Shown: piece after piece, positions 20,567 to 29,660 of the stretch | How the letters are laid out: every line of letters begins with the position of its first letter | Numbering within the stretch: the stretch's first letter is position 1 | DNA from: a virus | Virus record (IMG/VR): IMGVR_UViG_3300027736_000151 | Coordinates: 1-32,015 of that record | Length of the DNA stretch: 32,015 nucleotides | Reading direction: 5' to 3' (one strand) | Position numbers and translations under genes: made by a program | The notes under the pieces: generated by a model | What the model was told of the DNA's origin: nothing | Seen by the model: only the letters and a program-made list of their open reading frames with translations | The model's database searches: none

Positions 20567-23524
20567 ATGGCAAAGACAAAGATTAGTGAATTTAGCGCAA
20601 CCCCTGCTAATAACACAGACATTGACTCGATTAACATCGCAGAGGGCTGTGCGCCATCTGGTATTAACGATGCTATTCGTGAGTTGATGGCTCAGTTAAA
20701 GGACTTTCAGACAGGTGCTGTTGGTGACTCGTTTAACGGCCCTGTAGGTACATCTACGGCTGCTGCTGGTGCATTTACCACTCTGTCAGCATCTAGCACT
20801 GCTACGCTGTCTGGTTTAACTGCCTCTACTGCTTTGGCATTAGATGCTAGTAAGAACGTAGTCTCTGTAACCAATACAGGAACTGGTAGCAATGTGTTGG
20901 CTACCTCTCCTACTCTAGTAACTCCTGCTCTAGGCACTCCATCTGCATTGGTAGGCACAAACATCACAGGCACTGCTTCAGGTCTGACTGCGGGTAACGT
21001 CACTACTAACGCTAACTTAACAGGTGCAGTCACTTCTGTTGGCAATGCAACCTCTTTGGGTTCGTTTAGTTCTGCTAATCTTTTAGGTGCTTTGACAGAC
21101 GAGACAGGAACAGGGTCAGCAGTATTTGCTACCTCTCCTACCCTAGTAACCCCTATCCTTGGAACACCTACTAGCGCAACCTTAACGAACGCTACAGGTC
21201 TTCCTATCAGCACTGGTGTATCAGGTCTAGGAACTGGTGTAGCAACCTTTCTAGCGACTCCATCAAGTGCAAACCTAGCGGCAGCCTTAACAGATGAAAC
21301 TGGTAGCGGTGCTAATGTCTTTGCGACAAGCCCGACACTTGTTACTCCCATACTTGGTACTCCAACAAGTGCAACATTGACCAATGCAACTGGTTTGCCA
21401 ATCAGCACTGGTGTTTCTGGTCTAGGTACTGGCATTGCTACTGCTCTAGCGGTTAATACAGGGTCTGCTGGTGCGCCAGTATTGTTCAATGGTGCTTTGG
21501 GTACACCCTCTAGCGGTACTGTAACTAATCTAACAGGTACAGCCTCTATCAACATCAATGGTACTGTTGGTGCTACTACAGCTACTACTGGTGCTTTTAC
21601 TTCTTTAACAGCATCTACAACTCTTGGAGTAACTGGTGTATCTACCTTAACTGGTGGTGCAGTTGTTCAAGGTTTGACTGTTGGTCGTGGTGCAGGTGCT
21701 GTGGCTACAAACAGTGCGTTTGGTACAAGTGCTTTGGCGGCAGTTACATCTGCCGCTAACAATACTGCAATAGGTTATCAAGCATTAGCTACAAACTCAA
21801 CTGGTGGCGGCAACACAGCTTTGGGTGTTTCGGCTTTACTTAACTTTACAGCCACTAATACTACTGCCGTTGGTTTTAATGCCCTTGGTTTACTTTCTAC
21901 TGGAACTGGAAGTGTGGCAGTAGGCGCAGATGCGTTGGCAAATGTAACTACTGCTAATGATAATACTGCGGTTGGTCGTTCTGCTTTAAGTGTAAATACT
22001 GGCGCATCAAACACAGGAATTGGTAGGTCTGCCCTTGTTACAAATAGCACTGGTGCAAGCAATACGGCATTAGGTGCATATTCACTCAACTCCAACACCA
22101 CAGCATCAAACAACACCGCTGTTGGTTATCAAGCGGCCTATACAAATATAACTGGCACGCAAATTACAGCAGTTGGTTACAGGGCGGCTTATGTAAATAC
22201 CGCAGATTGGACAACAGCTTTTGGTTATGCTGCTTTACAAGCAAACACAACTGGTACTTTGAATGTAGCGATTGGCGGTAATGCACTGGTAAACAATACT
22301 ACTGGTACAGAAAATACTGGTGTTGGCATAGGAGTTTTGGCGGCAAATACAACTGGCAGTTACGTTACAGCAGTAGGTCGTGCGGCCCTTGTATCTAATA
22401 CTTCTGCAACAGACAACACTGCTCTTGGATTTCAAGCTGGCTATTCAAACACTACTGGAACTGTTACTGCTATTGGTTCTGGCGCTTTGTTTGCTAATAC
22501 AACAGGTGTTGGAAACGTAGCAGTTGGTTCTACATATCGTGGAGTAATTGCTGGCGCTTTGAATGCAAACACCACTGGAAGTTACAACACAGCAATGGGT
22601 GTTGGGGCGCTTACTTTAAACACCACAGCATCAAACAACACTGCTGTTGGTTATCAGGCGGGGTATTCAAACAGTACTGGCACAGCTAATACATTTTTAG
22701 GTCATCAAGCGGGATACCCAAATACAACAGGAAGTTACAACGTAGCAATTGGACAAAACTCACTTGCCTCCAACACTACAGGCACTAACAATGTGGTTAT
22801 TGGCAGAGAGGCTGGTTACAGTTTAACAACAGGCGTTGGCAACACATTTGTTGGGGGTGGTGTAGTTGGTTCACAACCTGCCTCTGGCTACGACATCACA
22901 ACAGGCTCTAAGAACACCATCATTGGTAACTACCGAGGCAACCAAGGTGGCCTAGACATTCGCACAGCAAGCAACTACATCGTGCTGTCTGATGGGGACG
23001 GGAATCCACTTATCTCAACCAGTAGCACAAGGTCTGTTGCGCTTAATGGTGCAGTCCCACAAACAGGCACAGGCATCACATTCCCCGCAACTCAATCAGC
23101 ATCATCAGACGCTAATACGTTGGATGATTATGAAGAAGGGACTTTTACTCCCGTGCTTAACTTTGCTGGCGGCACAACAGGTATTACATATACAACCCAA
23201 GCAGGCCGTTATACAAAAATTGGCAGAATTGTTTCTGTTTCTATTTATATTTTGTTAAGTAGCAAGGGTAGTTCAACAGGTGCGGCTGGTATTTCTGGTC
23301 TTCCCTTTACTGCGGCTCCTTCTGGTGGTGGACAAAACCAATCAGGCTGTATTGGCTATTATGGTTCTTTTTCAGTATTAACTGGAGTGCCAATGATTAG
23401 AGCAGATTCTGGGTCAACCAATTTGGCATTTGCTCAATCAGGTGCGGCAAGTGCTGGTAGCGTAACAGACACAAATTTTACAAACACCTCTGTTTTTACA
23501 ATTAACATTACTTACGATATTTAA
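20567..23524 (+). CDS. Tail fibre with tandem repeats and YadA-head-like section (985 aa)
   Basis: The N-terminal anchor, NIAEGCAPSGINDAIRELMA then QLKDF, is typical of phage fibres. Residues about 50-370 hold repeats (TSPTLVTPxLGTPxSA, LTDETGxGxxVFATSPTL). Residues about 375-790 are a Hep/Hag (YadA-head)-like array with NTAxGxxALxxNTTG repeats, suggesting a trimeric left-handed beta-roll. The C-terminal section after DDYEEGTFTPVLNFAGG is a probable receptor-binding head that ends in ITYDI. Fibres of this kind bind surface polysaccharide. AAGGA precedes the ATG. No chaperone or peptidase motif was seen at the C-terminus. Confidence 0.88.
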   Translation: MAKTKISEFSATPANNTDIDSINIAEGCAPSGINDAIRELMAQLKDFQTGAVGDSFNGPVGTSTAAAGAFTTLSASSTATLSGLTASTALALDASKNVVSVTNTGTGSNVLATSPTLVTPALGTPSALVGTNITGTASGLTAGNVTTNANLTGAVTSVGNATSLGSFSSANLLGALTDETGTGSAVFATSPTLVTPILGTPTSATLTNATGLPISTGVSGLGTGVATFLATPSSANLAAALTDETGSGANVFATSPTLVTPILGTPTSATLTNATGLPISTGVSGLGTGIATALAVNTGSAGAPVLFNGALGTPSSGTVTNLTGTASININGTVGATTATTGAFTSLTASTTLGVTGVSTLTGGAVVQGLTVGRGAGAVATNSAFGTSALAAVTSAANNTAIGYQALATNSTGGGNTALGVSALLNFTATNTTAVGFNALGLLSTGTGSVAVGADALANVTTANDNTAVGRSALSVNTGASNTGIGRSALVTNSTGASNTALGAYSLNSNTTASNNTAVGYQAAYTNITGTQITAVGYRAAYVNTADWTTAFGYAALQANTTGTLNVAIGGNALVNNTTGTENTGVGIGVLAANTTGSYVTAVGRAALVSNTSATDNTALGFQAGYSNTTGTVTAIGSGALFANTTGVGNVAVGSTYRGVIAGALNANTTGSYNTAMGVGALTLNTTASNNTAVGYQAGYSNSTGTANTFLGHQAGYPNTTGSYNVAIGQNSLASNTTGTNNVVIGREAGYSLTTGVGNTFVGGGVVGSQPASGYDITTGSKNTIIGNYRGNQGGLDIRTASNYIVLSDGDGNPLISTSSTRSVALNGAVPQTGTGITFPATQSASSDANTLDDYEEGTFTPVLNFAGGTTGITYTTQAGRYTKIGRIVSVSIYILLSSKGSSTGAAGISGLPFTAAPSGGGQNQSGCIGYYGSFSVLTGVPMIRADSGSTNLAFAQSGAASAGSVTDTNFTNTSVFTINITYDI
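21122..21238 (+). repeat. Fibre repeat, copy 1 (39 codons)
   Basis: It encodes the 39 residues starting VFATSPTLVTPILGTPTSAT and ending GVSGLGTG. The same residues recur at 21317-21433 with largely different codons. Confidence 0.9.
21317..21433 (+). repeat. Fibre repeat, copy 2 (39 codons, same protein, different codons)
   Basis: All 39 residues match copy 1, but I count 28 of 39 codons that differ synonymously and none that changes the residue. Confidence 0.9.
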
Positions 23525-29051: not shown

Positions 29052-29660
29052 TTATCCTTTAGCGTTCTTTAACGCACTTCTAACTTTACTAGGAAGCAAT
29101 GTCCATAGAGCAACTTTTTGTTCGCTGTCTAAGTTCTCTGCTTCCAACTTCACCCAAGCACTCTTAGGTTCTTCTTTATCACAAATAGCAATTAACTCCA
29201 TTGCTAACTCTCTGAGATAATTCTGTTCATCTTCTGGGATGGTATCCATTGCACCCTGAGTAGGAGTGATGATTATTTTTTCTTCCTTGATAGGTGCAGA
29301 GGAATCCAGAGCGTCATGCTCAACAATCTCCATTGCTGTAACCCATAGGTATCTTCTTGTGTACGTTTCTACAGCCCCTAGGTTCTGAATTGGATGGCAA
29401 CCTTTAAGGTTAGCCTCTGCCATTGGTGATGTGATGATGATGTTTGTGCCATCGTCTGTGTCTGTGATGGTCAGGCTTGCTATCTCTGTATCGTAAGAAA
29501 CTACACCACACAAACCAACTTCATTAAAGATTTGGTTAATCGTGGGGATAAAGTCACCGAGTTCAAAGTAACTGTAGCCAGCAAACTTATTGTGACCAGA
29601 CTTCTTGAGGGGTGCGTTTTGCAACATGATTCGTGCTGCCATTAACTTCTTGTGTACCAT
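29052..29660 (-). CDS. erf: Erf-family single-strand annealing protein
   Basis: The 202-aa protein has GYSYFELGDFIPTINQIFNE and then QNLGAVETYTRRYLWVTAME with EIVEHDALD, hallmarks of the ERF superfamily (P22 Erf-like) that anneals single-stranded DNA for recombination or circularisation. The C-terminal half is acidic and helical (QNYLRELAMELIAICDKEEP), typical of the linker and binding tail. It is directly followed by the SSB-like gene. It likely helps genome circularisation or concatemer formation. Confidence 0.9.
   Translation of the reverse strand: MVHKKLMAARIMLQNAPLKKSGHNKFAGYSYFELGDFIPTINQIFNEVGLCGVVSYDTEIASLTITDTDDGTNIIITSPMAEANLKGCHPIQNLGAVETYTRRYLWVTAMEIVEHDALDSSAPIKEEKIIITPTQGAMDTIPEDEQNYLRELAMELIAICDKEEPKSAWVKLEAENLDSEQKVALWTLLPSKVRSALKNAKG

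Follow-up and report, generated by a model that had tools for sequence, protein, structure and literature searches.

How do two neighbouring repeats of one phage gene come to encode exactly the same protein segment in largely different codons? The question is raised by the window, by which we mean the whole 32,015-nucleotide stretch analysed here (IMG/VR virus record IMGVR_UViG_3300027736_000151, positions 1 to 32,015), where a fibre-like open reading frame of 985 aa (20567-23524, plus strand) contains VFATSPTLVTPILGTPTSATLTNATGLPISTGVSGLGTG, a run of 39 residues encoded in frame both at 21122-21238 (copy 1, DNA lineage A) and at 21317-21433 (copy 2, DNA lineage B), exactly 195 nt apart and on the same strand. 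Recounting the copies gives exactly the figures of the preliminary description, with 39 of 39 residues identical and 28 of 39 codons changed; at the DNA level 31 of 117 nt differ (73.5% identity), and diagnostic sites and exact tracts place the longest exact in-register tract, of 14 nt, at 21206-21219 (21401-21414 in copy 2). These 39 residues form the longest stretch free of protein differences in a tandem unit of 65 residues; over the whole unit the copies match at 51-54 of 65 positions, according to where it is cut. Synonymous divergence is saturated (pS 0.79 in the core and 0.80 in the unit) and nonsynonymous divergence is low (pN 0.04 and 0.15, respectively), the protein differences over the full unit being as expected if these are old paralogues. 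We are confident, short of certainty, that the two copies are long-separated versions of a widespread 65-residue shaft module, in which the protein is kept by purifying selection, synonymous sites are free and modules are shuffled.

The fibre and its shaft modules

From N- to C-terminus, the reading frame is laid out as an N-terminal part, the shaft modules, a series of 17-aa repeats and a C-terminal domain. Its translation matches virion structural and tail spike profiles (PHROG 6002, 23837 and 4636; 2e-56 to 9e-37), and the genes upstream encode portal, scaffold and major head proteins, a phage structural gene cluster; together, the profile matches and the adjoining virion genes point to a fibre role. 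Sequence searches of Pfam, NCBIfam and PDB gave no match to the fibre protein, and an AlphaFold model, of the single chain only (pLDDT 68, pTM 0.33), was too weak to serve as a structure-search query. The PHROG matches and the repeat character of the module suggest a structural shaft role, and it is on this role that purifying selection would act. A partial copy of the module start, VLATSPTLVTPALGTP (20894-20941, plus strand; repeat family D7, 79% identity over 47 nt), lies 228 nt before copy 1 and shares a 14-nt exact tract with it at 20900-20913. The last module is followed on its 3' side by IATALAVNTGSAGAPVLFNGALGTPSSG (21434-21535, plus strand), a segment common to one-module and two-module relatives. 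Further downstream, at 21740-22860, runs a series of 17-aa repeats following the pattern NTTGxxNTAxGxxAL, which by eye resemble trimeric adhesin head repeats and have no Pfam match.

The module occurs in many metagenomic phage fibres, for which scans of viral contigs give counts that are at-least values, and at 33 loci in bacterial genomes. Our sample, among the matches listed, ran from 265 loci through 243 fibres to 566 core copies, with 65 residues as the commonest copy spacing (134 cases). Among these matches the exact 39-mer of the window is the most frequent core (20 of 566 copies, a frequency inflated by the fact that the loci were fetched with that very 39-mer), and identical cores were found in 7 of 600 within-fibre pairs. 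As the commonest core is also the one that the window carries twice, the identity of its two copies means that both match a conserved consensus.

Codons at random equilibrium

The preliminary description held 28 changed codons of 39 to be extreme for neighbouring repeats, a judgement that chance expectations do not bear out. Drawn at random from the codon usage of the fibre itself, two back-translations of the 39 residues differ in 24.8±3.0 codons (P=0.18 for the 28 observed), with the same result when the codon usage of the other genes is used. A second null, in which synonymous codons are shuffled within each copy over the 65-codon unit, gives 36.9 differing codons against 37 observed (z=+0.03). 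The same shuffle applied to the 134 tandem pairs among the matches listed returns a mean z of -0.95, and of -0.10 for the 103 saturated pairs. The longest exact tract in the window's unit, at 14 nt against 9.3 expected, indicates more identity than chance and no shortening. In the 17-aa repeats at 22028-22690 (plus strand), which served as an internal control, codon agreement exceeds the chance level (z of about -2.2 to -3.2 in four pairs of repeats, of which some overlap; about -2.7 overall), and this likeness suggests recent internal duplication. Synonymous sites of the twin copies are thus saturated and their codons stand at random equilibrium rather than scrambled, as follows if lineages A and B have long been separated with synonymous sites free. 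The codon-draw and within-copy-shuffle nulls are reusable elsewhere, as a guard against mistaking saturation for selected codon scrambling.

Diverged lineages and shuffled arrays

Each copy has its closest kin in other fibres. Among the matches listed, the nearest foreign copies to copy 1 differ by 5-9 nt of 117 (7-8 nt for those at six loci, including L003 and L008), and copy 2 lies nearest to the second copy of L001, 8 nt away, against 31 nt between the window's own copies. Lineage A has 34 members and lineage B four in the same sample, the lineages being set by distance without a supported tree, since 39 codons hold little tree signal. The pattern is general among the matches listed: of 479 copies with a sibling in the same fibre, for 401 some foreign copy lies closer than any sibling does, and for only 70 is a sibling the nearest copy. 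The check proposed in the preliminary description, a comparison of distance within a genome with distance between orthologues, finds the former greater in 51 of 54 orthologous tandem comparisons among the matches listed (comparisons that share fibres and are non-independent), and so speaks for old divergence. Copies are not more alike within genomes than between them, as concerted evolution would have it; instead, paralogues exceed orthologues at synonymous sites, the protein is conserved while those sites saturate, and fibres with one, two and several modules occur among the relatives, so that copies are gained and lost, all of which are marks of birth-and-death evolution.

The modules also keep varied company. 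Lineage A is followed by B in the window, L003 and L008, by lineage 8 at seven loci and by modules of 48-residue spacing belonging to lineages 5, 9 and 11, and at six further loci it stands directly before the downstream segment without B; conversely, L001 carries B without A before the same segment (21434-21535). Among the matches listed, the 134 tandem pairs represent 107 different lineage combinations. In the single-module relatives, the diagnostic bases match copy 1 as far as about 21200-21247 and copy 2 thereafter, and this region contains the only two exact tracts of at least 8 nt (21206-21219 and 21224-21231); these relatives may share ancestral events and were not counted as independent. 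L003 is mosaic in another way, matching 20567-20893 and then 21122-21289, with a jump that adjoins the 14-nt tract of the partial upstream copy and copy 1. The codon-path mosaic scan is noisy in low-complexity parts; from it we kept long segments alone, at an identity of about 0.87 or higher. What is directly observed is that synonymous sites are saturated, that the copies belong to distinct lineages, that the modules are mosaic and that switches fall at residual identity; judged from their junctions, the relatives show module repeats that do recombine.

On the explanation that we prefer, purifying selection would keep the module protein while leaving synonymous sites free, and lineages A and B would have separated long before the phages that now carry them, to be recombined since then in different orders with other modules. 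The tandem A-B would then be an old duplication or, more likely, the product of homologous recombination joining two already diverged modules, since A and B each occur alone before the same downstream segment; the agent may have been an Erf/Rad52-like or a host recombination system. Of the old duplication under strong purifying selection that the preliminary description had offered, the age and the selection stand, upheld by paralogue distances above orthologue distances and by random codons. Its duplication in place does not follow, since A and B sit in different module contexts across phages and the tandem may have been assembled from modules already diverged.

Two other histories deserve weighing. 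A simple old duplication in place, inherited vertically and followed by loss of one copy in relatives, accounts equally well for the single-module fibres, and it agrees with the shared A-B order of L003 and L008, where the copies within a fibre differ by 39 and 33 nt while their A copies lie 7 and 8 nt, and their B copies 18 and 19 nt, from those of the window. However, lineage A is joined to many different right-hand partners, so the arrays do not form a single vertical series; the evidence favours a later joining of diverged modules, and we consider the simple duplication somewhat doubtful. Alternatively, identical duplicates may arise often and be lost by recombination, so that the tandems that persist are those that are old or were diverged when joined, with no selection on codons. 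Tandem pairs of at least 90% identity are indeed few (3 of 134 among the matches listed), and the single-module relatives are copy 1/copy 2 hybrids with switches where some identity persists, the kind of product expected from deletion by homologous recombination. Short-read metagenome assembly, however, itself removes near-identical 195-nt tandems, so their shortage cannot be read directly, and the few near-identical copies that do exist are found also in a bacterial genome record (L087), with L237 probably a likewise case. As a full account such a filter is possible but unlikely; as an added process it is compatible with birth-and-death and shuffling. More doubtful still is an extended version in which arrays are built from diverged alleles of a shared pool, identical duplicates are purged by phage recombination and the divergence of codons between modules passively stabilises fibre length.

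Codon divergence as a proposed defence

The preliminary description had also proposed that codon scrambling is itself favoured, as a means of preventing recombination and deletion between repeats. In its favour, among the matches listed, the DNA of tandem copies has mostly diverged widely (median 39 of 117 nt), with not one of the 134 tandem pairs differing by 6 nt or less; in a first set, centred on the window sequence, no within-fibre pair fell below 20% codon difference. That apparent absence of near-identical copies vanished in the larger sample, where near-identical tandem or nearby copies were found at six loci and near-identical tandems outnumber what random re-pairing yields (at 20 nt or less, 9 observed and 0.55 expected; at 12 nt or less, 3 and 0.2), even though short-read assembly bias works against seeing them. 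Such copies in relatives were what the proposal itself had named as counting against it. Pairs from one fibre do not exceed foreign pairs in difference (0.451 against 0.461 where 38-39 residues are alike; 0.515 against 0.630 where 36-37 are), and codon-usage draws, pooled permutation, within- versus between-fibre comparison, within-copy shuffling and random re-pairing all gave no excess scrambling. With codon differences at chance, exact tracts longer than expected, relatives whose repeats recombine and 17-aa repeats of the same fibre tending the opposite way, where the proposal had looked for the same scrambling, we regard selection for scrambling as very improbable. A literature search found, among the hits listed, no report of natural codon scrambling of repeats.

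The phage does encode the annealing protein that the proposal invoked, an Erf-like single-strand annealing protein at 29052-29660 on the minus strand (PHROG 155, E=1e-19). For phage D3, Erf has been shown to recombine substrates of 78% identity with roughly the efficiency of lambda Red (PMC3945230), so divergent codons would give the repeats little protection, and by inference the 26% divergence seen here would only reduce exchange between the copies.

Least credible of all is a constraint on codon choice from an antisense reading frame or an RNA element: a 283-aa frame does lie open opposite the shaft modules (20707-21558, minus strand), but the third bases of 28 of the 39 codons have been substituted, the number that chance would give, so wobble positions offer no hint of being constrained a second time. 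The frame owes its openness to the composition of the shaft, from which Tyr and His are absent and in which Gln occurs once. In phage record MW202701.1 (L269, 2400-3671), a frame antisense to the same repeats carries the annotation 'ribonuclease E', which is probably spurious.

Known systems and wider occurrence

The twin copies are best read as a good illustration of an already known mode of evolution, the birth-and-death and shuffling of an old, purified module. Polyubiquitin is a close likeness, as its identical tandem protein repeats with many synonymous differences are explained by purifying selection on the protein, in the birth-and-death view of Nei et al. 2000 (discussed in PMC10457151). 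In Plasmodium, polyubiquitin repeats are more alike within a genome than between species, a case of concerted evolution (PMC10457151), whereas the fibre copies are usually less alike within a fibre than orthologues are, and their modules move between phages. Fragments of tail fibres and tail spikes are known to be shuffled among phages, both recently and long ago (PMC10684548); the likeness lies in that shuffling, the unit here being a 65-residue tandem shaft repeat traced at the codon level. Rad52-like phage recombinases, Erf of D3 included, carry out relaxed homologous recombination across diverged DNA, tail-fibre genes among it (PMC3945230), and exchange across diverged DNA is what the fibre shares with them, known here from junctions at residual identity only. 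Synthetic genes offer the contrast, since codon scrambling or diversification there gives identical protein repeats different codons by design, against recombination (at least in the available portions of PMC12365220 and PMC10094428), whereas the codon differences of the fibre, set beside what those portions describe, are not above chance. The locus thus provides a clean example of a conserved repeat module circulating among phage fibres, in which the codons become random, the protein is preserved and the arrays are reassembled in new combinations.

Two occurrences of the module stand apart from the rest. On a contig binned to Patescibacteria (L090, MAG contig JAIETW010000001.1), several copies of it, spaced by hundreds of residues, lie in a single 3413-codon open frame. 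The frame could encode a large surface protein, or the finding could reflect a prophage or a binning effect. L237 (IMGVR_UViG_2627853856_000004) carries six copies at alternating spacings of 55 and 65 residues, giving a higher-order period of 120 residues; copies separated by one such period are only 3 and 12 nt distant from each other, which, on the repeat structure, points to a recent duplication of a two-module block.
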